A DNA stretch of 64,000 bases from Bryum argenteum (Eukaryota > Streptophyta > Bryopsida > Bryales > Bryaceae): positions 7,522,001 through 7,586,000 of the forward strand of contig CM073321.1 in NCBI GenBank assembly GCA_037043015.1, given 5' to 3'. The notes below the pieces were generated by a model. It had not been told where the DNA came from, did no database searches, and saw only the letters and a list, made by a program, of their open reading frames with translations. The translations under genes and the position numbers were made by a program. This document shows, in pieces, positions 30,361 to 51,384 of this stretch. The first letter of the stretch is position 1. Each line of letters begins with the position of its first letter.

Positions 30361-30911
30361 CTAGTCAATTACTCAACCAAGCCAAGCGTAACTACTCCAC
30401 AACACGTAATTCATTATAATCATCAAATTACATATTTCATTCAAATGAGAATATTTCTATTATCATCAACCTAAATCCGCCAAAAAGAACTTCATTTAGA
30501 GCTAAAGTCCAAACCAAGAAAGTCAAAACTCTGAAATATAAAAAAAACATCACACTAAAACAAAAAACTCAACTATATTGAGAAGAAATATTTGGAACGG
30601 TCAAAATACATTCAATATCCAATCTAAAAGGAATAGCACATTAAAACGGTAACCATATTTAAATGAAAAACTATCACAATGTCAAAACTATATATAGTTT
30701 TAAACATACAATTCTATTTAAAGTAACAGTTACAATAGGGTGCTACTTTAAAAAAACTACATCAATCTACTATTGCGCGTATAACGAGAAAAATTGTAAA
30801 CAACTTCAATATGAATTAAGCTCTAAACAACCTCAAATCCAATGCGAGAAAAGATCTGGAAGAGCTCTTGTCCACTTTGTCCTCTATAACAACTAAAGCC
30901 AAGATAGACTA
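30361..30911. other. AT-rich junction without recognisable gene
   Basis: AT-rich sequence between the end of the gypsy remnant and the first palindrome of element A. No coding or structural signal found. Confidence 0.4.
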
Positions 30912-30932
30912 TTTAGCTCGACGTGAGCTAAA
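30912..30932. repeat. A palindrome at the 3' end of gene 1
   Basis: TTTAGCTCG, three bases, TGAGCTAAA: a near-perfect copy lying 26 bp beyond the gene 1 stop codon. Confidence 0.85.
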
Positions 30933-30957
30933 AAGCAATGTCTTGAATGATCTCAAA

Positions 30958-33895
30958 CTTTATTCCTCCTCGGTCTCAAGACGCAGAATACCTTGTTTGA
31001 TGATAGTAACTTGTTGCTCAGATATTGAGATTGTTGGACGTTGAAAACCAACTTTGGCACTAGAGTTCCATGACGTAAAAATAGCACCTGAATGAAGCCA
31101 AACCGGGTCCTGGCTGTCATCAAACACCCATTTGAAATTCTTCTGCGTGTCCCAACCAACATAGGTATCTTGAACAACAGCGCGCTTGCTAGAAGGTTTA
31201 AAAAATTGGATTCGAATACATCTCGGGTTGTTGCGATCAACATCAAAATCGGTCAAAGCCCTCGCAATCCAAAAGGGTCGAGCATCTCCATCTGTAGGAC
31301 GTAAAGCCAAAAAGTAGCCAGCATAAACATCTTGACCAACGCGAAATGACTCTCTTGGTTTATTACACAAGCGGCCGATAAAATGGGGATCTTGCCCATA
31401 TTCCTCGCGTAATTCACCCGTGTTAAGAAATTCTCGAGTCAAAGGTACCCGGGTCAAAGGCCAACATCCATTCTTCAAAACAGAAGAAACCTCCATAGGC
31501 GCCACCAATCAAACATTGACTGCACGCCAATAGCGTAAAACAGAATCGTGACGTCAACGATATTCTCCAGACAAGTCTTGGGCACATGAAGTTTCCCACA
31601 ACTTAATGAAACCAGATATACCTTTCACAATTTCATCCAAATTCTTTATAGGAATTGACGCTAGAGGCTTCATTTCTCCCGTGGGCAATATAGGCAAACC
31701 AGTAATTGCATTTTCTTTCCATAATTTTATTCCTTCGCTGGTCGATGGAAGCCACTCATTGTCAGAACATAACATCTTGTACTTCATCATAGGCCACCCA
31801 TTGTCATGCTTGAAAAACTTAAATTGTTGCCCTTCCAAATGACCGACAAGAATTTTGTCTTTAGAAGCAATTAAATCCTTGATATAGCCCTTAAAATCAG
31901 GAATTTCCTCAATCAAATGAGGAATAACTGGAAGTGCCTCAGCATCCATGAATGACTTCATCAAAAGAGGAATCGTCAAATAGTCATTCTCTTTTAAAAT
32001 CATACTCCAACGTCCAAAAAGAGCGTCAATATCTTCATGAGTATGTCTAACTAAAAGAAAATTGACATAAATTTCACTGAAAACGCCCATATGTACCAGA
32101 AGGGACCAAAAGCAAAACATGAACCGGTTCTTGTTATCAGAGGCGGCGTTGCCAAGTTGAACATGTAAAACCGGTGGTAAGGATTCCGAAGCTCCTATTG
32201 ACTCACTCTCCGGTAGAAGAGAGTTCAAACAAGCATCTCTTCCGATAAGCAATGCCTCAAGCAAAGGATGCGTTCCCGATCCAGCAAACAAGGACTAAGA
32301 ATGCGATATCGGAACTTGCTCTAGATCTTGCAGAAGCTTCAGAATAGAACCAACAGTGTGATTGCAATCACTCGGATAAATGTCAAGCCCGTAATGAGCA
32401 TAACGAACATCGCAATGCCCATGAGCAATCATTCCAGTTACAGCAATAGGAAGTTTCATCAGCGTATCATTAGTTTTTGTTTTATGAGAAAACAAAGGAC
32501 AAGCGGTCTTCGCATGATCCATTTTGTCGTGGATAATGCAAAGAACATCTTTGGGCCTTTGAATAGATAAAGAGCGGGTTGTATAATAATACTCACGATG
32601 TGTTTGCTCATGGTCCAAGTGGAGTTTAAGCTTCTTGATCCACATATTCTTTTCAGTTGAATTTGGCACCATAGACTTGATCATAGTCTCAAGTTTATCA
32701 CATGTTGCGCATCGCGTAAAATTATCTCCGGGTGCTTTCTTGGAATACTCAGAGAATATTGTTCGCCTGATGTTGCTGAGAGTGCTTTGGGCGATGAATT
32801 TCAGCCCCAACCTCTCATTGATGAGATTGATATCTGGGATCGTATCTTTCCATTTGCAAGACGAAGGCAATGACCCTGAAACTACTTTGAGCCCATTACT
32901 GAGCATCTTGGCTTTGTGCGGCATATGATCACTTGCGTTTTCGATTAACACCTTCAACGTTGCAGCAGCTTGCTTCACATGAAGTCTTGGTTTCTTGGAT
33001 CCGACATTCCCGTGATGTCGAGCACGTAAACCAGCAGCCGCCTCTGCTTGCTTCCTGTAGAACTTAGCAGGAGGAACTCCAGTAATATTCTACCAAGCTC
33101 GAGCACAAATATCAATACCTTCCGTTGTGACCATCATACTCTCGTCCGCAGTTTTATGAAATAGATGATGTACATCAATCTTAAAGTGCGCCTTGAACTT
33201 AAAATCCGAAGACTCTTACATTTGCTTTTGCAAGGCCAGAATCTTTTGGCGGGGAAATGGCTGACAAAAATTCTTATTGCAACACTTCATACTTGCAACC
33301 ATATTGACAGACTCCATCGTTAATAATCAATCTTCCCTCCTAGTTCTCAAGATCTAAGGATGCCTTTGTCCCAAAGTATACGGACGAACTCCTTTCCTCT
33401 TCGGCTGATGACGAGCATAAACCGCAGTATTGTATTGCTCGCGATGCAAATAATCAAGTAAAGACCAACCGTCATGAATGGCGTGGTTGAGATCCCATTT
33501 CAATGACTCGAATATAGTATCAAAAGGTGCAAACTCTAAATCCAAGCACTTGACGATCTGAACAACTACTTGATCATCTCGCAAAGGCTCGTCATCGGAA
33601 TCCAATACACAATCAGACCCCACACTTTGACAAATACCCTCTGCAACAATGGCCCCTCGAGGATTCAATAGTGTCACAAATTTAGCTATCCATTTGCATC
33701 TCGGAAGTCCAGGACAAACCTTCAAACCATCCGGCAATACGAGCTCAACAACTTCCAAATCCTAATGACCAGAAAACAATTATGTTAAAGACGGAACGAC
33801 CATAAACGACGAAAGCAACAAAGTCGTAAAAATTATAATACCTCTGAAGAAATACTTCGATTGACCCAATCATCATCGCACGTACTAGTCACCAT
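30958..33895 (-). pseudogene. Element A gene 1: DUF7869-type transposase-like protein
   Basis: The proposed start is an ATG at 33895 in a short exon (MVTSTCDDDWVNRSISSE, donor GTATTA). The next exon begins near 33762 with DLEVVELVLPDGL. A domain with CPGLPRCKWIAKFV follows, then KCCNKNFCQPFP and VCARAW-type motifs. The DUF7869 core holds LCIIHDKMDHAK, HVQLGNAASDNKNRFMF and VNFLLVRHTHEDIDALF. This core has an Asp / Asn / His-x-His-Glu-Asp pattern that looks like an RNase H-fold nuclease. The C-terminus (SFRVGQDVYAGYFLALRPTD, PFWIARAL) looks like a chromatin- or SH3-like fold. Stops lie near 33350, 33220, 33090, 32292, 31551 and 31512. DUF7869 proteins are widespread in plants, fungi and animals, usually uncharacterised; the transposase role is inferred. 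Confidence 0.65.
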
Positions 33896-34062
33896 ATAGA
33901 ATGGTCACAACTCGAGTATAGCCGGTAATGAGCTCTGTGAATATCCTACACAACAAAAGAAAAAAATTGAACATCTATGATTGGAAAACAAATTTAGAAT
34001 AAATTATAAATAAAAATCAACTGGAATCAAAACAACGATGTGGATGCCACTACACAAGGACA

Positions 34063-35125
34063 TTTAGCTCGACTCGAGCTAAACTAATGTTCAAAATCAA
34101 CTTGAAAGCATAAGACTCAACAGGTGTTACTGTCCTGGACTATTTAGCTCGAGTAGAGCTAAATAAACGTTCGAAATCATCTCGCATTACTATAACTATG
34201 TGGATTATACTACGAGGATGTTACTATAATTTATCTCGCAACGAGATAAATTGGGCTAGACCGAGTACTTTATTTACCTTCACTCGATTTAACTGCCTCA
34301 GAAAGTTCTGAAACATCAAGAGCTAATAGCGAAGGAACTGCGCTATTTTAGTAAAACATTTAGTAAAATATTTAGCTCGACTCGTGCTAAACACCCAGCG
34401 TGAAATAGTGAACAAGCTGTGGACTTTGCACGAGTCGAGCTAAATCCCTCCGTAAAGTCATGAATCAACCGTGCAGTTATCTTAAGTCAAGCTAAGTATC
34501 TACGCAGATTATGACACAGCTGGGGATTTAGCTCGAGTTGAGCTAATTGCCCCATTGAGTTCTCGAACATTCAAAGAAAATAGTAAAGGAATTGCGTAGA
34601 TTCAATACTATATTTAGTTACTCTTGCATAGTAGAATAATGAACTAATTTTGGGTTTAGCTCGACTCAAGCTAAATCCTTGCGTATGGTCGTGAAGGAGC
34701 CGTGCACATAGCTCGACTCGAGCCAAATACCTACGCAGATTATGTCACAGTTGGGAATTTACCTCGAGTCGAGCTAATTGCTCCATACAGTTCTGGAAAA
34801 GAGCAGAGGAATTTGCGCAGATTCAGTATATTATATAGTTAATCCACCATAGTAGAATAATGAAGTAACTGTGGGTTCAGCTCGACTCGAGCTAAATCCC
34901 TGTGTGTGGTCGTGAAATATACGTGCACTTAGCTCGACTCGAGCTAAATCCCTACGCCGATTTTGTCACATCCGGGGATTTAGCTCGACTCGAGCTAAAT
35001 GCCCATTTAAGCGTTGTGCTGAACTATAAGCTAGTTTAGCTCGCATCGAGCTAAAATCTGTGCGTTTAGCTCGTAAAACTGAAGAAACCTGTTTTTGCGA
35101 CTTAAATGCACATTGTATGCGAGCT
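34063..35125. repeat. A palindrome array upstream of gene 1
   Basis: About fourteen copies of the A palindrome lie in 1.06 kb, for example 34063-34083, 34143-34163, 34371-34391, 34527-34547 and 34655-34675, with good ones near 34928 and 34980. Some sit in repeats that share ATCCCTRCGCAGATTATG and GTCACAG..GGGGATTTAGCTCG. Arms vary slightly, and single-arm copies occur. One copy (34230-34250) has matching changes in both arms. Confidence 0.9.
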
Positions 35126-35149
35126 AAATGTACACTGTAAACCTACTTT

Positions 35150-35330
35150 CGAAAATTACAGCGCGCGGAAGGAGGTCGCAAAATTCAAGTTGAACTGCGA
35201 ATGAAATGGCATACTTGATGCAAATGTGAGATCACAACAAAACCCTACGCCGCAATCAAGCAACAGAAGCTGAAAACCTTGCCAAAAACCCCAATCACAA
35301 TGACTTGAAATGCCAAATGTAAAAGCAAAC
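35150..35330 (-). repeat. Inverted leader repeat, gene 1 side
   Basis: Read on the minus strand this contains TGATTGGGGTTTTTGGC, GATTGCGGCGTAGGGTTTTG, TGAATTTTGCGACCTCCTT and GTAGGTTTACAGTGTACATT. The same blocks in the same order occur on the plus strand at 39835-40045 upstream of gene 2. It lies 5' of gene 1, before the palindrome array, and is probably promoter and leader DNA of the element. Confidence 0.75.
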
Positions 35331-35339
35331 GTGGGAGCA

Positions 35340-35800
35340 AATGGCGGAGCTTCCTCATGAACAAACGCGAGTCAAATGCAGGAGTGAGCAGGAGCGCAGG
35401 ATTGTGCGGGGAACAACGAGGGAGGCGGGGAGGCCGGAGCGGAGGAGCGCGGGAGGGGGGACGGAGGAGGAGGCGAGAGGCGGGATGCGGGAGGCGGGAC
35501 ACGAGAGGGAGCGTGAGGCTCCAACGGTTGGCAGCCCTACTGGCTGGGTGGCTAGCTTGCCATGGCCATGGCCCTGGCACATGCGCCAGGCTGGCTCGGC
35601 TGCCATGGCCCGCGCACATGCGCCAGGCTGGCTGGCTGGCTGGCCAGGGCCTCCTATTAATGGGAGGGGCCTGGCAACTTCCTCGGGCCCTCAGGGCAGC
35701 CACCGCCCCTGCGCTCAGCCCAGCCCCCCCCATTAAATACCCCCCCCCCCTCACCCCCATCATTACCCCCCCCCCTCACCCCCACGACCTCCAATTAGCT
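35340..35800. other. GC-rich CpG-dense block with poly-C runs
   Basis: Purine-rich (GGAGGCGGGAGGC-like), then CCATGGCCATGG / GCCAGGCTGGCT repeats, then poly-C runs up to about 35790. Frames on both strands are open because of base composition and are not believed. A comparable GC-rich block (39425-39810) precedes the other leader, so both may be promoter-proximal parts of element A. Confidence 0.5.
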
Positions 35801-38800
35801 TATCCTTAATTAATACTTATTATTTTTTTTAATTTTGCATCAAAGTTTATTGAATGAAATGACAAAAATATTACTTTAGAGTGGTTCATTCATTGGGTCT
35901 TTTTTAGTTAGTCCAAGTGTTAAAATCATATTATCCTCACTTCTATCTATTCTTTCCCTATTTTTCAAGTTTTTGGTGGTTCCGAATACTTGCAACTAAA
36001 ATCTACCATATGGATCTGTCACTCGTATGATTTTTTTTACTATTTTATCATGTTCATGAGGTACTTTTTAGCTAATCCATTATTTAAAATTATTTTCCCT
36101 ATATCTTTCAAAGTTTTGGTCACTTCGACCATTGTATAGTAATTCGGGGAAAATTGTTGTGATTTTTTAAAATTTTTTTTGATGGATCTCACATTTTTAT
36201 ATGGTCCTTATTAGCTTATCTAAACATAAACCAATTTTCTCTCTTTTCCAGCTTATACATCTGCACACAGTCACCACCAATTTGAAAATGTCTAATTAGA
36301 TTTAGGTAATTCGAGAAAAATACTTCCCTTCTTCATGTGGCCTTACAATTTTTACCATGTTTTTTATATGATATGAATTACTTAGGAAAATTGTCAAGAC
36401 TCCTTTTACTCCGTTCTTGTTTATATATTTGCATACGCTTCCTTATTTCAAACTCTGCCGATTTAAATATTCCCATGTAAGCTCAAGCACATAGTTGCCA
36501 TTCTCCTATAATTTCCTTAACACTTCCATCACATTCATAGGGTCCCTATTAGCTAATTCATGTGTTTTTATCACCTCTTTTACCCTTTCATTCTTTATCT
36601 CCTTATTATTCAAAGTTCTCGTGGGTGCACCTATATTATGACATAGGGTGATGGTCTGGTTGGGGTACCCAAAAAGGTTGTCCCATGAACAATTGCACTC
36701 TATGCTGGTGTGACAAACATATCCATTTTTAAACTGTAATACAATAAGACTACATTAGATGTGGTTTTAGTTGTCTATACTTATAATGTATCAAGAAAAA
36801 AAATTGAAAATTAAAAAAAATATTTTGAAGTAATTTTATTTGATTTTTTAGTTGAAAAAGTAAGTCATGTCCCAATAACCTAAAATCCATAGAATCAAGC
36901 AAATGGAATATCAACCATTTTTATTTTAATATGATTTTTGAATATGACCTACATCTTCTTGTATAGAATACAAAATAATTTATTTAATAATAAAAAAATT
37001 AATTCATTGTGCACTATAATGCCTGCAAATCCCCAAATTCAACACTTTTTCCCTCATCTATGAATGGATCCAAAAAAAATAAAAAATCTAAAAAAAAATC
37101 TATAGGCATATATACTTTGATTTCAGTGAGGTGCATGATATTTTATTTTCTATTTTAGGGTCTTTTTACTTGATTAAAATGACTAAATTAGACAAACTTT
37201 GGAGGTTTTCAATAAAAATAACCTAATTAGTGTGTCCAAAAAGTGATACCCCAAGCTTACCATTGCCCCATATAGATGCGATTCTCCCATGATTTTTTCA
37301 TTTTATTCCATCATTATCATAGGGTTATAATTAGCTATACCTTGTATTAAAATCATATTATCCCGCATATAGATGCGTTACTCGTATGATTTCTTTTATT
37401 GCTCCATCATGTTTATAAGGTAAATAATGTTTAGCTAATCCAAGATTAAGAATTATTTTTACTCCCTTTTTTACTATTTTGCCTCTATTTCTCAAAGTTG
37501 TCTTCACTTGGACTATTCTAAAGTAATTCGAGAAAAATAGCTTCGATTTCTTTAAAAAAAATTGTGATGGTTCCAATATTTGTATGTGGTCCTTATTAGC
37601 TTATCTTCACACTAAAACCAAATTTCTAAATTCTAATCTTAGATTACTGCACCTCAAATAACACAATTATTATCTTGGAATATTTTTCTTAAAATATCTT
37701 AATTTTAAATTTTAATTACTAACTAATTATAGAAATCTAAAATATTATACTTAGATTATTGAATTTAATTTTCAAAACACTTATGTTAGAGTATTTTGTC
37801 GAAAATAACTCAATTAATATCATAGAGTATTTTGTTTCAGTAATCCTAATTTTAGAACACCAATTAGTTTTACAATTCATGAATACTATGTTTAGAATAT
37901 TGGACTTAATTTACTCAATACTTATGATATAGTATTTTGTTTAAACAACTCAACTTGTATCTTTGAATACAACTTTTGGATTATTTGAGTACTATAGTTA
38001 GAATATCAGACCTAATTTAGTAAATAATCAAGTTAGAGTAGCTTACCTTATTTACTAGTAAGATACTAAACTTTGAGTATTTCACTTAAAAAAATACAAT
38101 TTTAATCTTAAAATTACACATTTAGAATTCTTGAATTACACTATATTCAGAATACTAGACATACTTTATCAAATACTTATTTTGAATAATTTCCCTTAGT
38201 TAACATAACTCGATACTAAACATAGAATACTACTTTAAGTATATATTGGTATTGTAGTCAGAACACCACACCAAATCTAGTAAATAATCAAATTATAATA
38301 TCTTATCTTATGTACTAGTAAGATATTAAACTTAGGGTATTTCATTCAAAATAATACAATTTTAAGCTTAAAATTCGACATATAGAATTTCTGAGTACCA
38401 TACCCAGAATACTAGACATAAGGTATTAAGTACTTATGTTAAATAATTTTGCTTAATTTAACCCAATACTAAAGTTAGAATGCACGAGGGGTTTCAAAAT
38501 AAACTTGGATGTTTTATAAAATATGGATACGATAACCCTTATGAAGTAGTGCTTCAAAGACAGTTAGTATAAAAATCTTAATTCCTAAACTAGATCTGTA
38601 CGCTTAAATTTCCTAAAATAAGTAAGATTAGTTTAATAATTAATTAAAGAGAGTATAACTTTGAAAATCAGTCTAAAATGTAATTTTTGTAATTAGTATT
38701 TGGAAATTGTTATGATTGGTCAAAATCACATATTATATGATTAATCAGATAGGGGGCACAAGTAACCTATGGAGAACCTTATCATTTTTCTAAAATAGAA

Positions 38801-39400
38801 AAATTTCTTATACTAAGAAAACTTTGGACTGTTTGTTTTTCAAGGCTAATTCTGAACAATCTATCAAACCAAATAAGGTACTGTAAATTGAAAGTGGATG
38901 CGAATCTTACCAAACTCATAGAATGTTTAAAAGAAGTTAAAAAAATCTTTTATTTATTTAGATAGAGCTCCTTCAAATTCGGGAACGACAATAAAATGGT
39001 TGATCTAGCTCTTAGGAATTAAATAAGACGAAAATAGTGCAGAAGAGTGTTGTGGAGGAGATTCTAACGCTTAGGGTAGCTTAAAAGGTCGTTATGAAGG
39101 TAATGGGAGTGCAAAAAGAATAATACGAAAATTGAATCTATGTGTTGGAGTGTTTAGAATTTGTTGTGATGAGCGACCTCGGAATCTTCTAGAATCTTCT
39201 AACCGATCTTATCATCTAGTTAGTTCAAGTTAAGTAAAAGTCTAAAGTAAAAGTATCTAAAATTAGTGCCCTAACAGGGGTATATACATATAAATGAACC
39301 ATATACAGATCTATCAATCTTTTTCAATACCATTTTATTGCTTTCACTTTCTTCTTGCTCTCAGCAGTATGTACCAAAATCTAGCATAACTTAAAAAGAA
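35800..39400. other. AT-rich DNA without genes; contains one MITE
   Basis: Apart from the MITE at 36646-37268 there is only decayed AT-rich sequence. From 37.6 to 38.5 kb it is a diffuse repeat built on phrases such as AGAATACCACACTTAATTTA and ACTAAATACTAATCTTAGAA, related to sequence at 50.9-51.6 kb. No coding frame above 75 codons is convincing. Confidence 0.5.
36646..37268. mobile_element. MITE with 4-bp target duplication, copy 2 (623 bp, inverted)
   Basis: Near-full-length inverted relative of 21481-22118, starting GGGTGATGGTCTGGTTGGGG and ending CCATTGCCC. Flanks are CATA at 36642-36645 and 37269-37272. Non-coding. Confidence 0.88.
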
Positions 39401-39834
39401 TACATTAGGAAGCAGCCGTTTGAAGCCATGGACCTAGCGCACCTTGGGACAGCCGGGCAGCGGCCAAAGGCCATTAACTTATCACAGGGTAGCCCGGGCA
39501 GCCGGGGCAGCCGGGCAGCGGCCACGTGCAAAGAAACCTTTGCAGGCAGCCCTGGCAGCGGAGGGCAGCTGCGACATGTGCCGCGCGAGCTGCATGCCGG
39601 CAGCACCTGCTCTCCGACCCTGACAGCGCTGTGCTTCCGGTGTTCACCCTGTTCGCTTCTGCTGTGCTGCCGCTTTGCTCTAGTTTTGTACCTTCGCTGT
39701 TCCTCCGCTCTGCTTGCAGAATAGCTGCCTATTCCGCTCCGCTCCCGCACCTCCTGTTCCGCCGCTATCGTGCCGCTGTCCCGCCGGACCTTCCTATTCC
39801 GCTCCGCTCTTAGATTTGCTCAGTTTTTGTGTTT

Positions 39835-40045
39835 CAGCTCCTCATTTTGATTGGGGTTTTTTGCACGGGGTGAACGATTGCCGCGTAGGGTTCGTTTTGA
39901 CATCACTTGCAAACACACGCCTCTAGTACGCAGTTGTTAACGCATTTGCATTTGGAATTGAATTTGAATTGTGCGAGATCCTTCGCGCGAGAATAGGTTT
40001 ACGGTGTGCATTTTCTGTAACTTGGTTTAAAAGGTGCATTTAGTT
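39835..40045 (+). repeat. Inverted leader repeat, gene 2 side
   Basis: TGATTGGGGTTTTTTGC, GATTGCCGCGTAGGGTT, TTGAATTGTGCGAGATCCTT and ATAGGTTTACGGTGTGCATT correspond block by block to the minus strand of 35150-35330. It lies before the minisatellite that leads into gene 2. Confidence 0.75.
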
Positions 40046-40049
40046 TGAC

Positions 40050-40880
40050 GCCTGTGCATTTAGGTCCCAAAAACAGGTAATTTCATTTTGACGAGCTAAA
40101 CGCACAGTATTTAGGTGGCTGCCACCTAAACGCACAGTATTGAGGTCCCTGATTCCAGACGCACAGGTTTGAGGTTCCTGCATGCTAGACGAACTGTATT
40201 GAGGATTTAGGTGGCTGCCTGCTAGACGCGGGGCATTTAGGTGGCTGCCTGCTAGACGCGGGGCATTTAGGTAGCTGCCTGTTAAACGCACAGTTTGACG
40301 TCCCTACATGCTAGACGCATAGTATTGAGGATTTTGGTGGTCGAGCTAAACGCGGGGCATTTTAGAGGCTGTCTGCTAATCGCGGGGCATTTAGGTGGCT
40401 GCCTTCTAAACGCACAGTATTGGGGTCTCGCATTATAGACACACAGTTCGAGGTCCCTACATGCTAGACGCACAATAATGAGGATTTAGGTGGCTGCCTG
40501 CTAAACGCACAGGTTGAGTTCCCTACATGCTGGACGCACCTTATTTAGGATTTAGATGGCTGCCTGCTAAACGCATAGGTTGAGGTCCCTACATGCATGA
40601 CGCATAATTTGAGTTCCCTACATGTTGGACGCACCGATTCAAGATTTAGATGGCTGCTTGCTAAACCGGGGCATTTAGGTGGCTGCTTGCTAAAGGCAGA
40701 GTTTCATGTCACTATATGCTAGACGCATAGTTTGAGGTCCCTACCTGATTGGCGCATAGTTTGAAATCCCTACATGCTAGACGTACGAATCGAGGTCCCT
40801 ACACGCTAAACAAACAGTTTGAGGTCCCTACATGCTAGACGCACAGAATTTAGGTGGCAGCGTGCTAAACGCATAGTATC
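40050..40880 (+). repeat. Minisatellite in the gene 2 leader (about 28-33 bp units)
   Basis: Two alternating unit types: GAGGTCCCTACATGCTAGAC followed by GCACAGTTT, and TTTAGGTGGCTGCCTGCTAA followed by ACGC. About 25-28 units in all. At 40110-40130 one unit is a perfect 21-bp palindrome with arms TTTAGGTGG / CCACCTAAA and centre CTG, suggesting the array grew from palindromes of the same design as the A motif. Half copies of the A motif (GAGCTAAACGC) occur near 40091 and 40345. Confidence 0.8.
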
Positions 40881-41061
40881 TATTTACAAACTGAAGCTTG
40901 TAGTCCAGCAATACGCTTGGACAATAAGCTTGATTCGAGATAAGTCCAGTGCAGTATTAAAACCTAAATGCAAGGTTGTTTCGTGACGATACGAGCTAAG
41001 TAGCGGATGTGCATTCTTAAGGTACCGTTGGCACTTATAGTTTTTGCATTGAATTGCAGAC

Positions 41062-41154
41062 ATGGCTCGCATTAAGAGCACTGCTAGAATCGTTCCCGCC
41101 AACTCAGGGATACCCATTGGATCTCCGAGTCAGGATGAACCTCCTGATCATGAG
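41062..41154 (+). CDS. A gene 2 exon 1: histone H3-tail-like N-terminus
   Basis: The 31-codon exon starts MARIKSTARIV. Histone H3 begins (M)ARTKQTARK, so six of the first eight residues after Met agree, including Lys4 and Arg2/Arg8 in register. The exon ends PPDHE at a GTATGT donor. The first exon of B ends DHAE at the same place and contains ARTKCTAR. Confidence 0.7.
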
Positions 41155-41230
41155 GTATGTTTACTTTGTGTAAACTCCACTGGTTTGTTTTAAATTCATA
41201 AATTCTGTACGATACATTCCTGGTTAGGAA

Positions 41231-41250
41231 TTTAGCTCAGTTTGAGCTAA
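41231..41250. repeat. A palindrome in intron 1 of gene 2
   Basis: TTTAGCTCAG-TTTGAGCTAA, slightly degenerate, 33 bp before the acceptor. Confidence 0.85.
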
Positions 41251-41282
41251 TTCCTCTTATGTTCTATTTATCTCAAGTGCAG

Positions 41283-42632
41283 TTCAACACAAGTTCTATC
41301 GAAGAATACATAGAGCCCCTAGACGTGGAGCACTCAGATGTACTCGCTGCTGCTACCGAGGACGTCCAACAATACGGAATGTTGTGGGCTCCAAAGCCGC
41401 ATTCGATCGTATCCTGGTCCTTATACCTGAAAGAGAATGGAATTTTCCACCTTTTCCAACAGTCTGGAACTAATTCCGCGCATCTCCCCATCTGCAACGA
41501 CACATTCATAAACTGTGTCAACTATGAGGGGTCCCACCTCTTGATCACACTTAAGGTGACCTACGTGCGTGAGTTCGTGTTCACTATAGTCTTTCCTGAG
41601 AACGAAGTGCGATACTCGCACGACACTATCACGAATTACATGGTGGGGAAGACAGAGACGGGACTCGTAGACCACATTGTCATAGGGCTACTGAATGTAA
41701 GCCTTCCCATGAAATTCGTTCAGACCTACCAGTAGTATTGCATGAATATCTGGAGTGCCTTGAATGATCACGAGTTAAACAAGGCCAAAGGTAAAGCACC
41801 CGCACGGACAACACTTGTGGCTGCGTTTGAAGAGGGTAGCGGGTTTGGAACAGCTCGATCGGGTATGGCCTCCATTGAAGCAACTCCTTCGGCTTCGAAG
41901 AAACGCCGCAATTCAAACGTACCCCGAGTTAAGAAGGGGAAGAGATCCAAGAGTAATTTGGGGTGCAGTACTCTTACTTACTTGAATCCTACTATAAAGC
42001 ACGCCTCAACCGAGAAAGATATCGATTACGAAGCACCAAGTAAGACCTTGAAGGATTTCTAGGAGAAGTGCGAGCCTTGTTACGTTTTTGGGAAGGATTC
42101 TCTTCTATTCAACGTGTCTATCGATCTCCTCGTGAATGCTGATGCGCGGTATATCATCCGGAAGCTGGAGACCGCTGGAATTGTGCATTACAAAAACATA
42201 TTGACAAACGCAATCGATTTGAACTCGAGGCAGACCATCATCATTATGTCGGTGATGGATGAGGCCCCTGAGACATGGAACTGGGATGAACTACTCACTT
42301 CAAAGTGCAACTTCCGTGTCATCGATGGGCAGCATCATGTGCAAGCCGCGAAGGAGCTGATCGAGGAGGCTAGAATTGCAGCTGATAAGATTACCGCCTT
42401 GAAGACTTGGCGGGCACAGATTGTTTGGCACATCTGACGCGAAAATGATCATGGACGTGTCCATCATGGCAAACAAGACCAACAACGCCGGGACGTTCAC
42501 ACCTTCGTGGGCACGAATATCTTGGGCACGAGGAGTGTTTGGTTGGAATACGGGTCGCCCGCGAAGTGTGGTCCGAAGCCCAAGTCCGGTCGTGAAACAA
42601 TCGAACAAACTATCGCCCGACAGAAGTATGAG
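41283..42632 (+). pseudogene. A gene 2 exon 2: unrecognised domain plus ParB-like domain
   Basis: First part (41283-41735): an unrecognised domain, YEGSHLLITLKVTYVREFVF and RYSHDTITNYMVGKTET, that aligns with B at about 59065-59245. After a TAG comes a Lys/Arg/Ser linker (SASKKRRNSN, KKGKRSKSN). From about 42100 a ParB/sulfiredoxin-like fold follows: SIDLLVNADARYIIRKL near the start and NFRVIDGQHHVQAAKEL at about 42310-42360, the GxHRxxAA-type signature of ParB and ParB-like nuclease domains. In bacteria and phages this domain is often joined to a DNA methyltransferase. A TGA and frameshift near 42435 break the frame. It is recovered near 42515 and runs to the donor at 42633. Confidence 0.65.
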
Positions 42633-42694
42633 GTATATCTTGCAACATAGTTTATCTCTATCTGCAACAACGTTTTCTTAGTAGCAGTGCACCT

Positions 42695-42837
42695 TTTAGC
42701 TTGACTCAAACTAAATGTTTGCAGAGAACCATTCTTACGTCTGAATCTGTGGCATTTAGCTCGATCCGAGCTAAATTCAGGGCGTTTAGCTCGAATCGAG
42801 CTAAAATCGCATAGAATTTAGCTCGAGTCGAGCTAAA
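42695..42837. repeat. Four A palindromes in intron 2 of gene 2
   Basis: Copies at 42695-42715, 42755-42775, 42785-42805 and 42817-42837 fill half of the 258-bp intron. The last two are perfect or nearly perfect in both arms. Confidence 0.92.
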
Positions 42838-42890
42838 CGATCATTATCATCACTTCATGTTTTTTAATGAAATTGCTCTTTCTTCTTCAA

Positions 42891-44225
42891 GATTTTGAGG
42901 AGGCTATGGTGAAACGCTTCATGAGCATCAACACCAAATCACTCGACAAGCTCTTAAAGCCATCAGACCTCCTCAACGAATTGGAACTCATCACTGCTTA
43001 TGAGGAAGTATACCAACTGTGGTCCAACGTTATCATTGCAAACGGGCTAGGAGAATTGATTGACCCCGACACTTGCGAGCCTTTCAACCGGACGCAAGAC
43101 TGGGCCTCGAAATCCAAGGAGACTGTCTTGTCTCGCGATACCTTCAAGTGCATGTCAAGATTGGAGGAGCACAATTTAAAGATTCTTGCGGAATATCTTC
43201 TGAATAAGACTTCCAATTGGGACCTACCGTATCCTAAGGTGTCCTTCAAGAAGCCAAAGGTCAACTACTGGGAGTGCGTTTTGATAAAGATGTGGATGGA
43301 GAAGCGCAAGAGGAAAAAGTGTGTTGCCAGAGAGTTCCACAACATCAAGCCTGCACTCGGGTTATTTGATAGTGCCGACAACTTTGTTGTTGACAAGTAG
43401 AATCAGTTTAAGTGCGATTACAACGTCAACCGGCAGACTATGTCCATGCTCCTTTCCGTTCCTGGTGACAACTTCTTTAGCGACTACCGCCAGAAGAAGA
43501 CGAAGAACAAGAATTCAGAGGAGATTTCCGAGTACGCTGCACAGTTCTTTAAGAAGTTCTTCGATGTCAAGGGGGAATTTTCGCTGCCAACTCCGGCTCT
43601 TCGCACAAGCATGTTTGATGTTGAAACATTCCAATTTGGGGGCTGGGATAATGGGTACAGTGGGGCTGATGGTAGATGCGCGTTGAACATCATCGACCTC
43701 AGATGCGTTCCAGGCCACAGTACTAGAGTGGACGATACGTCCAATGTCTACTTCAATGACTTCTTGAATGCTTGGAGGGATTCGGTGTTTGATCCCTCCA
43801 TTACAAATCCTGACGTCTGACTTATTATCACGGAGACCACCGATCGGAATTGCCAGGCCCTTCTGTATTTCAATGCATTCAAGGATGAGTACAAGTTGAA
43901 GACTGTGCAGTACGCTCATGCGAGCAATGAGCGTTTCAACGGTATCCAGGAGGGAAAAGTCGTGGACAAACACCTCATTACGCTCTTGTTTCTTGTGAAG
44001 AGGAGCGACCAGGTAGCCGATCTTATTGAATCTATTCCGGACACGTTCTATGCTCCAGAATTGCCCCTTTATCAAAGACCGAGAGCGTACAGGGAGTTCG
44101 ATTTCAGCATCAACGAGAACAAGTTGCGTTTAGAGTTCTACATTCGCATATTGCGAATATTTACCATTACAGGCAACAGATTCCTGTCGATTATGGCAGG
44201 CACAAAGCCCATGCTTGCAGGAATA
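42891..44225 (+). pseudogene. A gene 2 exon 3: middle domain and methyltransferase-like domain
   Basis: The middle domain (DFEEAMVKRFMSIN, then WSNVIIANGLGELIDPDTCE and KKCVAREFHNIKPALGLFDS) aligns with B at 63025-63520. The methyltransferase-like part has ALNIIDLRCVPG at about 43680-43715 where motif IV, (N/D)PP(Y/F/W), is expected. This is followed by VYFNDFLNAWRDSVFDP, typical of the helix after motif IV. Then LRLEFYIRILRIFTITGNRF and LSIMAGTKPMLAGI form motif I (FxGxGT-like) at the exon end. The order IV then I is beta class. D has the same motif I before an intron at the same point. Stops at 43398 (TAG) and 43818 (TGA). With Asp-Leu-Arg in place of DPPY, catalysis is doubtful even in an intact relative. 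Confidence 0.6.
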
Positions 44226-44242
44226 GTAAGTTCACCTAGGCG

Positions 44243-44334
44243 TTTAGCTCGATCCCAGCTAAATGTCTTTTTTTTGTAGCTTAGCCATCTGCTTTTTCTG
44301 TTTTACTTGTTAATACAGCTCAGCTCGAGCTAAG
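44243..44334. repeat. A palindromes in intron 3 of gene 2
   Basis: One copy with one weak arm at 44243-44263 and a compressed copy (CAGCTCAGCTCGAGCTAAG) at 44316-44334, within the 169-bp intron. Confidence 0.8.
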
Positions 44335-44394
44335 ATACCATAGCTTCACTGTACGTTCTTCTTACTTTACTTACTTAGTGTTTTCATTTGTCAG

Positions 44395-46551
44395 ATGCTT
44401 AATCTTCAGACTCATATTGTCTACAAAGATGAAGATGAGTTGGAGAAATACATAGCCGTCCTGACAAATAGTTTTAATCTTGATCCCAACGACTTTTGTG
44501 TGGAAGCCTATGTGAATCCAGCTTGGGTTCATGGTCCGAAGCCTGGGTGTTTGTCTGAGGCTACGTTTACCCATTCTGCTCGTCGTAGGCGTGATGAAGC
44601 ATCGTCATCTGGAGGTCGTGCTCGTCATGGTGAGACATCGTCTGCTGCTGTGGCTCGTGGTGGCGAACCATCATCTGTTGGTCGTGGCGATCTATTGTCT
44701 GGTGGTGGTGCTCGTGGTGGTGGTGCTCGTGGTGGTTGTACTCGTAGTGGTCATCCATCGTCGGGCGGTCGTACTCGGGGTAATCATCCATCGTCCGGTG
44801 GTAGTGGAGGCGCTCCTTCATCCGCTGTTCCCAGTCGTGGAGGCGCTCCTTCATCCGGTGGTCGTGGTCGTGGTGTGCGTGCTCGTCCTTGACCATCCAG
44901 GGGAACTTCTGGTGGGCGGGCTTTAAGTGTTGAGCCCGTTCAGAATATCGATGACGTTCAGAGGAATTTGATGGTAAATCTGTCCGCCATTGACGACGAT
45001 AATGATGTTGTTCCAGTGGTCGACCGACGACGATCTCTGACTTGCGGTGGTGATTTAGATCGAGTCGAGCTAAATCCCCCTACGCTCCTTGAGGAGACAC
45101 TCGCTTCCACCGGCCTCCCTGGTACTCTTAGCGAAGACGATGATAATGAAGATGATAATTCTCACTATCGTCGAGAGACCCGCACGAAGGCGGTAAATGA
45201 TGTTTTTGGGTCTCAGTCGGATGAGGAGGTCATTCTCGGACAAGAGAGGATGCCCAGGGATGCGGCTACCTCTGATAGTTCTGACGAAGAGAACGCCGAT
45301 GATGGTTGTGAAGGTTCTGACGAGGATGACACTATTGATCCCTTGCCCATGAATTTGGGTGATGATGTCGTCTCCTCTCCGGCTTCTATGTTGGCCCCAT
45401 CGCCGGCAGCAGCACTAACCAGGGTATCATCGCCGCCTCCCGCAGTTACGAGGGAGTCATCGCCGCCTCTGCCAGTTGCAATGGTGTCATCACCGCCTCC
45501 GCCGCCTGTGGTGCATCCTTTACCTGCTCCTGCCCCTGTAAGCGGACTGTACCTTCTTTTGTTGAAGAAGGGTGTTTGGAATACTCACGCGGATGACCCC
45601 GATGAGAATGTGGAGACTACATTTTTCGATTTTTCGAGTGAGCCGGATTCTCCCACGCCTGCAGAGGGTGCTACTGATTCCCTCATAAGTCTCGGTCTAG
45701 GTCCGCAGGAGGAAGGGGAACCTTCACAACCGCGAGTGAAAATTGAGACGAACATTGCCCTTCCACTCTCAAAGGATTTCAAGCGAGCACAGCGTGAGAA
45801 GGAAAAGGAGGAGAGAAGGACCGCCAAACCAGCTGAAGAGGAAGCTGTAAATGCAAGACGCGAGGCGCTTAGGCTTGCAGATCTTGCTAGGTTGGAGGAG
45901 CAACGACGGGCAAATCATGCTAGGTTGGAGGAGCAACGGCGGGCAGATCAACTTGCCGTCCAATCCAAATTGTCGAGTTCGGTGAGCTCAAATTCCACAG
46001 TTCTGGGCGATTTGAGCGATTTGAGGATCTTGATGACCCAGATAGCACAGGTGGCTCTTTCCCTTGTCTCCTACAACCCCGCCAATCAGCCTACTTTAGC
46101 TATCTGTGGGCCTTCGACTTCCACCACCCAAACTCCACCCGAACGCTCAGCACCTCCGATTCCTTCAGTTCCTACGTGCATTCTTCCTGCTCCTTCTACC
46201 TCACTACCCGACGTTGTTATTGAGGAGATTATTGTTGACGCATCTCCTTCCGAAGCTGATATCGCCAATCAAGGAGAAAACGATGGCGTTCATCCGCTCG
46301 AGGCGCCAGACCGCCGAAACGACAATGTGGACTATGAAGCCAGCAACTCCGGGCCAGCGGATGAAGATGTTCGTGACGGCGCATCCTCGCTCTTGGTGAC
46401 CCCCGTCTCGATTGGTGCGGCGTCTGCGCATGAGGCTTCTGAGGGTGGTTGAGAGTTGCAAGAAGATGCAGAGAGAGCCGTTCATGGTGTCCCAATCTCC
46501 TTAGACTTTGCCAATGATGAATCTGACTCAGTACCTGCGACTAATCCCACG
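44395..46551 (+). pseudogene. A gene 2 exon 4: motif II, Gly/Arg-rich and acidic/Pro-rich tail
   Basis: The exon begins MLNLQTHIVYKDEDELEKYI, the strand and acidic turn expected after methyltransferase motif I. A low-complexity stretch at about 44574-44889 is rich in RGG/GGR/SSGG, of the kind found in RNA-binding, phase-separating proteins. After a TGA (44890) the frame stays open for over 500 codons: Asp/Glu-rich (SEDDDNEDDN), Pro/Ser/Val repeats (VSSPPPAVTRESSPP), then a charged coiled coil (RLEEQRRANHARLEEQRRAD) and an acidic end. The A palindrome at 45054-45074 is inside this coding exon. Confidence 0.6.
45054..45074. repeat. A palindrome inside the coding exon of gene 2
   Basis: TTTAGATCGAGTCGAGCTAA plus A: one mismatch between the arms, read as DLDRVELNP in the protein frame. 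Confidence 0.88.
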
Positions 46552-46583
46552 GTGAGGTTCTGACTCAACTGAAGGAAAGTTTG

Positions 46584-46604
46584 TTTAGCTCGGGTCGAGC
46601 TAAA
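46584..46604. repeat. A palindrome in intron 4 of gene 2
   Basis: TTTAGCTCGG-G-TCGAGCTAAA, in the last intron, just after the donor at 46552. It is the rightmost copy found. Confidence 0.9.
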
Positions 46605-46748
46605 TTTCTGTACATGTCTGCGTGTTTGACTGGTTGATGAGCATTTGCTTATACTTTTGCTCGGCTTGTATGCTGTTTGATCTTTGTAGGAATCTTAAAG
46701 CCGGCGCTCCTTGTTTTACAGGAGTCCGGCATTGAAGGCGGCGAGTAG

Positions 46749-48320
46749 GTCTTGCGAGTTAGTCTTCGAATTATTGGATGGTGTGCGACGTTTTGTTGAT
46801 AGTACCATTTAATCACATCATTAATTAAAATGAAGACTTTTTATTATATCACTTGCGTCTGGACTGCGTCCGCGTCATTCTCCTCACCAACTGGCGCAAA
46901 ATATCGTCATTTCTCTATCAGGCCGCGCCTAATGAGTACCTTATTCCGTCCTTTTGAGAGCTTGATTTGGCTCTCTTATTTCATTGTAAGGTTTTTCATT
47001 GGTTTTGTGAGTGAATTGGTAATGAACAATGCAATCTTGGGGTAATTTGACAAAATCAAAATAATTAAGTTGTGAACATAATATACATGTTCAAAGATAA
47101 TTTTCGTAAGGCCTTGGGTAGATTATTTAGCATTGATTTTGAGTTTTGATTAGATTAGGAGTGAATGGTTTGATAAGGAAGGACTAGAGGAGGTAAAAGG
47201 CCCCCTAGTGGATCCTTAATGCGATGAGAAAGGCATAGAGGAGGTAAAAATCCCCCTAGTGGATCCTTAATTAGCGTAGGATTAGTTGCTTGACTTTGGA
47301 TTAGATATTTACCGTTAGCCTTGCGTAATTAACTTTTGATATTCATGTTTGTGTTTGTGATTTGATTGTATTGGTTTTGTTCATCTAACTTCGTGGTGGC
47401 ATTGGTAAGTTACATTCATTCATAGAGCCGATGGAGTAGTTGGTGTGTTTGAAGAACGGAGCGTCATGGAGTTGGGGCAACATTCATCCACAAGGATCTT
47501 AGATTAGGGCTTTGAGCCTTGGTAGGGTTAGGGTGAGCCGCCTCTACGGCGGCTCCTTATGTTGTATTTAAAAGCTTGTTTCCAAGCTTCTTACAATCAC
47601 CTCCATCTAGTTAGAGGCCATGGGCCTCCTCCTCCATCTTCTTCACCTTCTTTGTCTCTTGATCTTCTTGTTCACATTGATCTTCCTCTTGAATTGTTTG
47701 TTGATAGGAGAAGGAGAGCCCTTCTTCCTTTTGAATTGTTAGTTGATAGAAGAAGGAGAGCCCTTCTCAAGTGAATGTCTTCTCGATTTGCTTAATTGTT
47801 GAGAGAAGGAGGCCGTGGGTCCTTTCTCTCAATTCTCTCAATCCCCATCAAATGTCTCTCGGACTTTCCCCATCAGTCGCTCAATTCTTCTTCAAATTGA
47901 TTGAGATTTTTGTGGTAGGTCGCTTGTAAGTAGAGCTTTCCAACCGTAGTAAGCATGCTCAAATCCGAGTCGTAGAAAGGGAGAAATTGGCTCCCAAAGT
48001 CAGGGTGTCGAAAACGGTTTCCCCCCCGGCAGTGAGCAAATCAGCTGTGTTCAAACAGCAATCAGTCACGGAGTTTTTTTCCTATGCTGTTGAGATTTCC
48101 AGGGTAGATAGAGCTCCAAAAGAGCTTTCCAGGGGTATATGGTATGCCCCAATCCGATCTTTAGAGAGGGAGAAATCGGCTCACAAAGTCGGAGTATTGA
48201 AACGGTTTTCCCCTCGGCATCCGGCCGGTGGTACTTTTCTTCTTCTTTTCTTTCTCCCTCATTCTCTACTTTTCTCCTCTTCGCTCTTCTTTTTCCCTTC
48301 ATGTAATCTTGTTTCCTAAA
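46749..48320. other. No recognisable gene; short direct repeats
   Basis: A 36-bp sequence (TAGAGGAGGTAAAA...CCCCCTAGTGGATCCTTAAT) is repeated directly at about 47185-47221 and 47235-47271. A 40-bp GAAGGAGAGCCCTTCT-containing unit is repeated at about 47690-47770. A longer diverged direct repeat (GGGAGAAATYGGCTCMCAAA) lies near 47975 and 48165. A TATTTAAAAG box at 47565 after a GC-rich hairpin (GCCGCCTCTACGGCGGC) could belong to an LTR or promoter. Confidence 0.4.
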
Positions 48321-50045
48321 ATCCCTTGTGACCAAAGGCCACTCCATGGTGGGTTTGTTTTTGGTTCACAGTTCACTTGCCACAAGAACCTCCACCGACC
48401 TCCTTGTAGTGTGCGTCGTTGTGGTGGTCCGGTCCTCAATCACTCCAAGCAGTCATTTGCATGCTTCAGCATTTCACAAGGTAACACTCTTGTTTTAATA
48501 TCGTTCGCAATTGTCACTTGTCGTGCTGCAGGCTAGATTGTCCAAATCTTCAAGCAGGACTTTCACTACATCCCTCGGTCAACCCCTACCGCCTGTGCCA
48601 TCACTCAATGGACACCGGTCCATGCCCAAGTGGTTGAATGTGGTGTTGGAGTTGAACGGGGTCCTTTCTTCCACTACCCCTATGTCTCAGGCGCCATCTC
48701 AGTACCTTTTCTTTCCCGATCCCATACACCCTCCTGTTCTTTCCTCCACTATTCCCATCGTAGTTGCTGACACGGTAGTATACTGTCGCCCTAGACTTAT
48801 CCCCTTCCTTAATGTGTTAGACCGTTTTTGCCACATCCATGTTCGGAGTACCCTTCATCCTGGGGTTGTCCACGGTCTTTGCACCTTTCTTTTCTCTAGA
48901 ACTTCTCCCGTCCCCCAAATTATATTAGCTTCAAACTCCAGCGATGGACTTTTGTTGAAGAACTACTCGTAGGCCATGTATCCTCGCACGACTAATCCCA
49001 TCCTACTTAAATATCCTCGTCGACGTCTCTTCACTAGAAGGGATGCTAATTTCAACGCTGAGAACTTTATTATGGTTGACAGCAATCACGGCGCTTGTAT
49101 GGGTGTTCCCCCATTGAACACTCTCTTTCCCGATCCTTGGGTCCATTCACACTAGTGTCCACCCTCAGACTCATATCCACTTAAATTAATCCACGAGTTT
49201 TGTTTTGCTGTACATTTGAGAGGTCCTCAGAACGTCCGTCAAGTTATAAGTGGTAGACCCTCTGACAATGAGCTCTCCAAGGACTCCGAGTTGTACGGCA
49301 TAATGTCCCGGAATCTGCCCTATGTTTGGAACCAGCTCCTTGTGAATGGGAAAACAATGTCGTGATTCCTTTCTTTTACGGTATTAGTTTAAATTTTTGT
49401 TTTGCATTTTGCCTCAGTATAGCTTAATTGCGATGGTTTCGTTCTAATCGCTCGTCAGATTATTACTATTTGCTAGTCACGAATTTGCAAATTGCAAATT
49501 GTTCAAACTGCCAGTCGTACCATAAGAATGAGTTTTACTGATTGAGTGTTTGTTTATATGATATTCAGGTTTTCAGCGATTGACAACAAAGTGCTTCGCT
49601 CGATGATATTCCCCCTGTTGGTCCCTCTACGGTTTTGGATGCCTCTTTCAATAGTGAGGGGTCCAGGACACTCTCGGAGTTGCAGCGAGGGCGGTACATA
49701 TATCCTGCTCGAGAGGAAGCATCCGCTGTGGAGTACACCAAAGAGGTCCTGGATGATGATGATGTCGTTGATAGTTATGTCAATGTACGGAATCGAATTG
49801 TGGTGGCTTCATGTGATGACATCCCGTTGAGGACGACAGGTACCGTGGCACGGATTAGTGACACCCCGATTCATTCCACAGACTTGGATGTACCTTGCGA
49901 TTTAGCTCCTGTCAACCTAAATGATCCTTTGCGAACTACAATCGCCCGTGTGGAACTCTCCTCTGCAGCAGACTATCGCCAAGCTCTTGGAAAGCGAGAC
50001 AGAAATGACGCTTTTGGTGATGCATGTCCTCGTAGTACAATTTAG
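48320..50045 (+). pseudogene. HAD-superfamily NIF/FCP1-like phosphatase, broken
   Basis: An upstream exon candidate has spaced Cys (FTCHKNLHRPPCSVRRCGG). The main exon from 48535 reads KWLNVVLELNGVLSSTT, equivalent to HAD motif I of NIF/FCP1-like phosphatases but with Glu-Leu-Asn in place of DxD. VVYCRPRLIPFLNVLDRFCH and IHVRSTL follow (motif II region), and after a TAG at 48970, FNAENFIMVDSNHGACMGVP (motif III/IV region). Another TAG lies at about 49153. A downstream frame, 49635-50045, is acidic and ends at a TAG. This class of Cys-rich HAD-like proteins is multi-copy in some non-flowering plants (recollection, not checked). Loss of DxD suggests no phosphatase activity. Whether it belongs to element A is unknown; no A palindrome lies in it. 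Confidence 0.6.
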
Positions 50046-50221
50046 ATTTTACTAAGCATGCAATCACAAAATGTTCTTTTCAGAGGAGATTTTTTTAATT
50101 GATCCTAATAAAAGCAATGTTTCTATAATTTGTGATCATTGGTATTTGTGCATACGGTCTGAAGTTCAATGTAACTTGTAAAAGTTTAGTGTATCATATA
50201 GTATAGGATTTATATATTAAG

Positions 50222-50320
50222 GATTTAAGATTTAGAGTTTAGGGTTTAGGGTTTAGAGTTTAGGGTTTAGGGTTTTTCTTTAGGATTTAGGTAGTTTAGG
50301 AGTTCAAGATTTAGGGTTCA
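50222..50320 (+). repeat. Short telomere-like TTTAGGG block
   Basis: About seven imperfect TTTAGGG / TTTAGAG units in the G-rich orientation, opposite to the block at 3266-3405. Confidence 0.75.
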
Positions 50321-51384
50321 AGGATAAATGCACTTTTCAATTTGAAGTCTATAGGGTTTTGAAGAGTATTATTGTAGCAAATGATAAGGATAATCACAAA
50401 GTGTTAATATACAAAAGTTTTATACCCAAAACTTGTCATTAGAATAGAGTAGTCATGACGTGATATTCAGTTAACATGTACAAAAAAGAACTTGATTATA
50501 TAGATAGTACAGTTTCAATAGATGGTGAATTTATGTTGTCTTGCGATTCTAATGGACATTAGAAGAGGTTAGAGTATGCCCTAATAGTGTTTTCAAACTT
50601 TGACCATAAAATATCTTCTTAAGTATGAGAAATATTGAAGCACAAAATTAAATTTAAAAAGTAGGTATAAGCTTTACACTTACAAAGCATTATATTTTCA
50701 TGCAATCTATATTTGAAAAATATATGCTTACCAAATCCAAATCAACCTATTTAGAGCTTTTTCCTATTATAGGGGTTAACCCTATGGGCGTTTAAGGGTT
50801 AAGTATGTTGATCCTTGACTTTGTCGCTAACCTCGCTACCATCCCCCTCTCTCTTTTTACTACCCTCCAAAATTTTGAATAACACATTTAGAAAAACTAA
50901 ATAATATTCTTAGAATATCACACATAATTTACTGAGTATTCATATTAGAATACCACACTTAAAATAACTCAATTTTACACTACGAACACCATATTTAGAA
51001 TAATTGCATACTATACGTAGGATATCATATCAAATTTACTAGTTAATAATATTATAATACCACACCTCATTTACCAAATACTATTCATAGAATACTACAT
51101 TTAGAATATTGAGTAGTATATTTTGAATACCATATCAAATTTATTAAATAATCATGTTAGAATACCACACTTTATTTATTAAATTCTAATCATACAATAC
51201 CTCACTTAAATTAATTGAATGTTATACCTACTTTACACAGTAAATTTACTAGAATACATTATTTAAAATAACTCAATTTGAATTCTCGAAAACCACATTT
51301 AGAATAATTATATACTATACTTAGAATACAAGACCTAATTTACTCAATACTAATCTTAGTATAGTACTCTAAAATTAATTGAAT

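Follow-up and report, generated by a model that had tools for sequence, protein, structure and literature searches.

A 64,000-nucleotide stretch of the genome of the moss Bryum argenteum (contig CM073321.1, positions 7,522,001 to 7,586,000; referred to here as the window) contains many copies of a 21-bp, two-fold-symmetric palindrome, TTTAGCTCGANTCGAGCTAAA, and these sites belong to one dead copy of a family of DNA transposons of about 22 kb with terminal inverted repeats (TIRs). The sites lie mainly in the leaders of two divergent genes of the transposon, gene 1 and gene 2, and in the introns of gene 2, and their arms, TTTAG and CTAAA, keep a fixed distance of 11 bases in clades of the family whose proteins are distantly related. 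The reading that we favor, which we put just short of an even chance, is that the palindromes are operator sites of a regulatory system encoded by the transposon itself, read by a dimeric protein that is most probably the gene 2 product and that would counteract silencing by a logic like that of the VANC proteins of VANDAL elements. The clustering of palindromes had been noticed in a sequence-only reading of this DNA; that observation is confirmed and widened here, and the mechanism is plausible.

Results

A search of the window for the palindrome returned 20 sites at up to three mismatches, four of them exact and all within 30912-46604, but none in 100 shuffles of the window. At up to five mismatches there were 27 matches, 25 of them inside 30800-46700. 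The remaining two are a five-mismatch match at 10680 and a four-mismatch match at 49901..49921, the latter inside the element in an exon of gene 3, where a clade B copy has a palindrome with one mismatch.

Twelve of the 20 sites form an array in the gene 1 leader (34063..35055), and one (30912..30932) lies 27 bp beyond the gene 1 stop codon, compared with 32 bp in a clade B copy. In gene 2, intron 2 has four sites (42695..42837), with homologous sites in other copies, whereas introns 3 and 4 and coding exon 4 have one each. The exon 4 site (45054..45074) has counterparts at the matching place in the clade A2 copy L093 and the clade B copy L069, and the intron 4 site (46584..46604) is matched by an A2 site at the same place. 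The array upstream of gene 1, the site just past its stop and the single exonic site are thus as originally described. That all four gene 2 introns carry a palindrome holds only at a loose cut-off, because the intron 1 match (41231..41251) has four mismatches; at up to three mismatches only three of the four introns qualify. Intron 3 has two palindromes at 44243..44334, with two and five mismatches. Sites are mostly noncoding, with exonic sites making up 1 of 20 in the window copy and 2 of 46 in a clade B copy on contig C6, even though coding sequence makes up about 47% of the element. Not recognized before were seven sites in the gene 2 leader (40110..40869) of the form TTTAG-N11-CTAAA, which match the palindrome in arms and spacing and differ from it in their inner bases (for example, TTTAGGTGGCTGCCACCTAAA), and the full span of the element, 30401-50057.

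Copies of the element were divided by gene 2 identity into clades A1 (the window copy), A2 (about 78%), B (about 54%), and C (about 31%); a further clade D, about 50% identical to C in gene 2, was compared with C only. When the window copy and pieces of A2, B, and C were scanned for TTTAG-N(5 to 17)-CTAAA, 11 was the sole gap length in the window copy (22 arm pairs), the A2 pieces (35), and C (7), and in clade B 41 pairs had a gap of 11 with one each at 14 and 16. With these two exceptions the two-fold geometry is rigid, and the 44 kb of the window outside the element contain no arm pair at gap 11. At least one site with TTTAG/CTAAA arms was present at all 30 gene 2 loci fetched, including that of the window.

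The window copy of the transposon occupies 30401..50057, with its left end present, its right part lost after 50057 and one extra stretch inside. Of 29 other gene 1 loci examined, 25 have a left end that matches window position 30401, and their flanks differ. All eight right-side stretches from other copies extend past the point matching 50057, and the four longer ones all reach an inverted terminus. The first part of the left TIR (30401..30420, plus strand) corresponds to a 28-nt sequence, AACACGTAATTCATTATAATGGGAATAT, in other copies, and is followed here by a short deletion; in copies L082-L085 the other end is the inverse of the left end, AACACGTAATTCATTATAATGGGAATAT. Allowing T or A at one position, this 28-mer has 151 matches genome-wide, and the listed ends include 16 facing pairs spaced 18.9-24.7 kb apart. 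Seven of eight two-ended copies are flanked by a 4-bp target duplication (GATT, TTAA, AAAA, TTGC, CGAC, TTGC, and TTTA), and one is without. Matching inverted termini and target duplication together identify the element as a TIR DNA transposon.

Gene 1 (30960..33760, minus strand) encodes a DUF7869 transposase-like protein and belongs to that family at 115.6 bits against PF25273 (cut-off 26; E 2.8e-33), with 151.3 bits for its clade B homolog. Open frames of gene 1 reach 958 amino acids in other copies. Gene 2, a multi-exon gene with homologs in other copies, diverges from gene 1, and in the pairs inspected the two are arranged head to head at a distance of some 11-20 kb. The copy in the window is dead: stops and frame shifts interrupt its gene 1, which has QLGN in place of the QLDN of clade B, a 1.4-kb extra stretch is present, and the right part beyond 50057 has been lost.

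The same arrangement of sites is found in distant clades. A clade B copy (C6:18.15 Mb) has 46 sites, 38 of them exact, in the same compartments as the window copy: 20 consecutive sites, mostly 50-53 bp apart, in the leader of gene 2; 13 sites in the gene 1 leader, at intervals of 52-56 and then 76-80 bp; eight sites in gene 2 intron 3 at 35-70 bp, and one each in introns 1 and 2; and single sites beyond the stop codon of gene 1, within exon 4 of gene 2 at the corresponding codons, and in an exon of gene 3. Clade C, only about 31% identical to clade B in gene 2 and 49% in gene 1, has exact palindromes upstream of a gene 1 copy and of gene 2, and directly behind the matches to exons 2 and 3, which are the positions of introns 2 and 3 in A and B; the gene 1 and gene 2 matches likely come from one copy. 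Exact palindromes also surround gene 2 of clade D.

As far as sampled, the sites are tied to the element. The genome of the window (259 Mb, 25 contigs) was searched with one piece each of gene 1 and gene 2, and 150 matches were scored for each, out of 1574 gene 1 and 807 gene 2 candidates. The exact palindrome occurs 5878 times and its 15-bp core 6985 times, compared with zero for each control (reversed, in the case of the palindrome). Placement was checked for 100 listed places per motif, all on contig C1 (its first 1.31 Mb for the exact palindrome, out of 5878, and its first 1.06 Mb for the core). Against 21% of positions, 98 of the 100 listed exact palindromes had a copy of gene 1 or gene 2 no more than 11 kb away, a figure based on 7 gene 1 and 8 gene 2 places, and so did all 100 listed core sites. 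The listed part is thus clustered on element copies and not evenly spread. Two of the listed exact palindromes, C1:1119773 and C1:1120007, have no such copy at that distance.

A more specific sequence, the A2 intron 3 site, occurs 85 times genome-wide. Based on 80 A-clade matches (assigned by identity) from the best 150 gene 2 matches and on 9 gene 1 places, 71 of the 85 follow a listed same-strand gene 2 match at a downstream distance of 618-1344 bp, and the remaining 14 are 12-36 kb away from a gene 1 copy, the latter figure being given without a background rate. This association is partly trivial because copies inherit the site. Of the 80 clade A gene 2 copies used, 67 lie on contig C1, as do 68 of the 85 A2 intron 3 sites; this contig (44.09 Mb) makes up 17% of the assembly and is perhaps a sex chromosome or another chromosome of low recombination.

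That relatives of the element would keep the palindrome is borne out with a qualification: it is present in them, but in a shifted version in clade A2, where sites homologous to those of A1 have other inner bases. At three of five homologous sites (the first site of intron 2 and the intron 4 site, each with C..G in A1 and G..C in A2, and the exon 4 site) both sides of the palindrome differ.

Among 132 C-type sites at 24 loci (A2 loci excluded, sites at up to three mismatches) we counted 113 changes, 27 of which are transitions at CpG, flanking CpGs not being used as a comparison; this appears to fit past methylation of silent copies. Successive sites showed no helical phasing (R 0.20, 53 spacings). 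Targeted insertion of the element into palindromes is unsupported, since genome-wide only three element ends have an exact GAGCTAAA within 30 bp, compared with 151 ends that match the 28-mer. Two nested insertions were seen, copy L010 in an intron 3-like site and copy L013 beside a site.

As to the possible reader, the TIR is by eye unlike the motif, and the reader therefore need not be the transposase. In gene 2, a segment of exon 2 (42063..42434, plus strand) containing IDGQHHVQAAK matches the DndB profile PF14072 at E 0.032 (13.7 bits), below the cut-off of 29.1; the motif also occurs as IDGQHHVEAAK, and its clade C counterpart is IINGQHSVAAS. At E ≤10, three of five distinct gene 2 sequences (two A-clade copies and the window piece) match PF14072, 0.032 being the best and below cut-off, and the B and C copies scanned at that threshold gave no match. 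The DndB profile has a single candidate in the whole genome, which scores 12.4 bits (E 5.3) and falls within a copy of gene 2. Searches of gene 2 against PDB sequences and NCBIfam returned no match. The resemblance to DndB is a weak lead and not an identification.

Discussion

We propose that a dimeric protein would bind the arms TTTAG...CTAAA, 11 bases apart, and that the leader arrays of both divergent genes, together with the gene 2 intron sites, would concentrate this protein over the transcription units of the element. The bound protein would most likely keep the genes of the element expressed and unsilenced, as VANC does in VANDAL, although plain activation or autorepression would be other outcomes of such binding. 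The gene 2 product is the likeliest binder on this proposal. The nearest precedent, also named in the sequence-only reading, is VANDAL21 with its VANC21 protein, of the Mutator-like elements of Arabidopsis. According to published accounts, VANC targets form arrays ahead of VANA and within VANB and VANC introns, expand in tandem and differ between subfamilies (PMC5735166; PMC10398659). The layout here is closely alike in its tandem arrays upstream of the transposase gene and in the introns of a companion gene, its mainly noncoding placement, its turnover, and its differences between subfamilies (PMC5735166), and the element shares with VANDAL the trait of arrays of its own motif in noncoding DNA. 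The VANDAL21 motif, however, is given as 9 bases, YAGTATTAY, in one orientation (PMC5735166), whereas the site here has 21 bp, two-fold symmetry and a fixed gap.

The likeness does not extend to membership in VANDAL. The gene 1 pieces lack a MULE/MURA domain match, DUF7869 being their sole Pfam match above cut-off. VANDAL elements make a 9-bp target duplication and have no long TIR, and neither the 4-bp duplication in seven of eight pairs nor the 28-bp TIR fits them. VANC proteins carry DUF1985, which had no match at E ≤10 in the A2 and B gene 2 pieces scanned. The CACTA (En/Spm) group, with CACTA termini and a 3-bp duplication, does not fit the AACACGTAATT ends or, again, the 4-bp duplication, nor do its domains fit. 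TnpA, encoded by the maize CACTA element En/Spm, activates that element, with demethylation (PMC10398659), a logic that the system proposed here would share. The sites of TnpA are near the element ends, whereas those described here are in leaders and introns, and CACTA ends are absent.

Several observations weigh against a self-encoded dimeric reader. The change at homologous A1/A2 sites is one-sided at two of five (the second site of intron 2 and the intron 3 site), and two-sided change is thus not general. The gene 1 leader of clade A2 carries a 30-bp array of TTTAGCAGACAGCGACCTAAA, in which the arms are kept but the interior is asymmetric. Clade A1 itself has C-type sites in the introns and the gene 1 leader and G-type sites in the gene 2 leader, and therefore either one protein reads both or two proteins exist. 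Over 31 A-clade copies, uniformity is 0.963 for the outer arms, 0.900 for exons, 0.864 for the inner bases, and 0.860 for other intron DNA; this favors the proposal as regards the outer arms, which are more uniform than exons and other intron DNA, but not the inner bases, which are no more uniform than other intron DNA. For whole palindromes compared with other intron DNA within clades, the values are 0.946 and 0.924 in A1 and 0.954 and 0.959 in A2; because these differ little, the argument from conservation rests on the comparison between clades. Two apparent introns of gene 3 in copy L093 have no sites. Exon 3 of gene 2 has no strongly conserved block, while the motif of B and C stays constant.

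This last constancy bears most directly on the best of the alternatives, that a conserved host transcription factor binds the sites and the element has borrowed enhancers for its two promoters and introns. Preservation of the motif between B and C despite a fall in gene 2 identity to about 31% is explained equally well by a host reader, and seems to us the strongest point in its favor. In the clade B gene 2 leader (L069 6249-7296), moreover, many array units are extended to GCCCA-palindrome-TGGGC, which we take to resemble plant site II promoter elements. Against a host factor stands the clustering of the listed sites on element copies (98 of 100 exact and 100 of 100 core, in the first 1.3 Mb of C1). 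The strongest argument against it appears to be the difference of inner bases at homologous sites in A2, which is not favored by a fixed host factor. On balance, we consider a host reader unlikely, though not negligible.

Somewhat less probable still is autorepression, in which a protein of the element, bound at the sites, would hold down expression and copy number in the way that DndB acts on its own operon. DndB has a DGQHR motif and binds palindromes of the form TACG-N10-CGTA (PMC4507180), and it has been termed ParB-like (PMC12704722; PMC10853773). The presence of sites in both gene leaders, which share inverted similar stretches, the faintly DndB-like segment of gene 2 and the palindromic operators of DndB (PMC4507180) are all consistent with repression. 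The likeness lies in IDGQHHV of gene 2, which is similar to DGQHR, and in palindrome arms at a fixed gap (PMC4507180). The gene 2 match, however, is below the Pfam cut-off at E 0.03 and absent from the B and C sequences scanned, and the host element is a eukaryotic transposon and not a bacterial operon. The run of 20 sites in the clade B gene 2 leader and the intronic sites also exceed what repression should need.

A role in transposition, with the palindromes as subterminal repeats bound by the transposase, is improbable. TnpA of En/Spm binds such repeats near the element ends, and one site here does lie 511 bp from the gene 1 end in the window copy and 419 bp from it in clade B, but the remaining sites, in leaders and introns, are kilobases away from the ends, and the TIR does not resemble the motif by eye. 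We think it very improbable that the sites are functionless tandem repeats spread by slippage and unequal exchange. Arrays with periods of 30 to 80 bp do turn over between copies, but in clade B 38 of 46 palindromes are exact while array spacers are about 62% alike (46% when shuffled; 69% allowing either orientation; only units between exact palindromes compared), essentially one gap length occurs, and across clades the sites recur in leaders, in an exon and in different introns. Least probable of all is an RNA-level role as hairpins for splicing or export, for although the sites occupy introns and leaders and an exact site is a perfect inverted repeat, a one-base central loop should make a poor hairpin, and a gap that stays at 11 although the inner bases change, like the asymmetric A2 leader sites, favors recognition of the arms in DNA.

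If the self-encoded regulator that we favor is indeed the gene 2 product, its DndB-like segment raises a more specific idea, which we regard as a long shot: gene 2 might encode a eukaryotic, transposon-borne protein of the ParB/DndB fold that would load at the palindromes as ParB does at parS and spread along the element against silencing chromatin. This would represent clamp-type anti-silencing independent of VANC and, judging from repeats in another moss, old enough to be common to mosses.

Those repeats are the Physcomitrium patens tandem repeats Pp01_31 (31 bp) and Pp08_44 (44 bp), which hold ATCAGCTCGAGTCGAGCTGAT, in Pp08_44 across the unit junction (PMC6302065). They have the same 15-bp core and 21-bp layout with other outer arms, ATCAG...CTGAT, and the site system may on this account be shared among mosses; the accessible part of the published description draws no link to a transposon (PMC6302065). 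The system described here may explain these two palindromic repeats, which were published as plain repeats. Among the papers listed in literature searches on the motif and related subjects, nothing else was relevant beyond that paper; the literature searched included no paper naming DUF7869, and among the papers listed none described such self-regulation for this kind of transposon. Should a protein of the element read the sites, this would constitute an independent origin of sequence-specific self-regulation or anti-silencing. Co-evolution of protein and site would then be directly testable, as one genome holds many copies in several clades, with sites common to B and C but different in A2.

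Other features of the element

The exons of gene 2 (41062..46812, plus strand, end approximate; degenerate here) were placed by eye from splice sites in the window and copy L093, at 41062-41154, 41283-42632, 42892-44225, 44395-46551, and 46722-about 46812. Downstream, a 1.4-kb stretch (46952..48375) is absent from copy L093, through insertion here or loss there. Gene 3 (48531..50050, plus strand, limits approximate, degenerate) encodes a NIF (CTD small phosphatase-like) protein, as assigned from the profile match of its clade B homolog (PF03031, E 8e-06, 26.1 bits, cut-off 21.8) and from DNA similarity. The NIF-like sequence (window 48531-50050; L071/L069) has ELDGVL where DLD would be usual.

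In gene 1 of clade B (L070 4238-6472) there is a subthreshold match to an Xre-like helix-turn-helix (E 0.15), and the transposase itself might thus carry a DNA-binding domain. The inverted similar stretches of the two gene leaders are 35034-35112 with 40053-40131 (79 nt, 82%) and 35241-35278 with 39855-39892 (38 nt, 71%), which look as if one leader had been derived by copying the other. Some spacers of the clade B gene 2 leader (L069 6249-7296) are reverse complements of others, as if flipped by recombination between palindromes. The 134 bp past gene 1 at 30864-30997, which bear a palindrome, are tandemly duplicated in many other copies. A different repeat (50061-51881) adjoins the broken right side of the window copy, and similar stretches are present on C1 near 15.78, 14.95, and 2.13 Mb.

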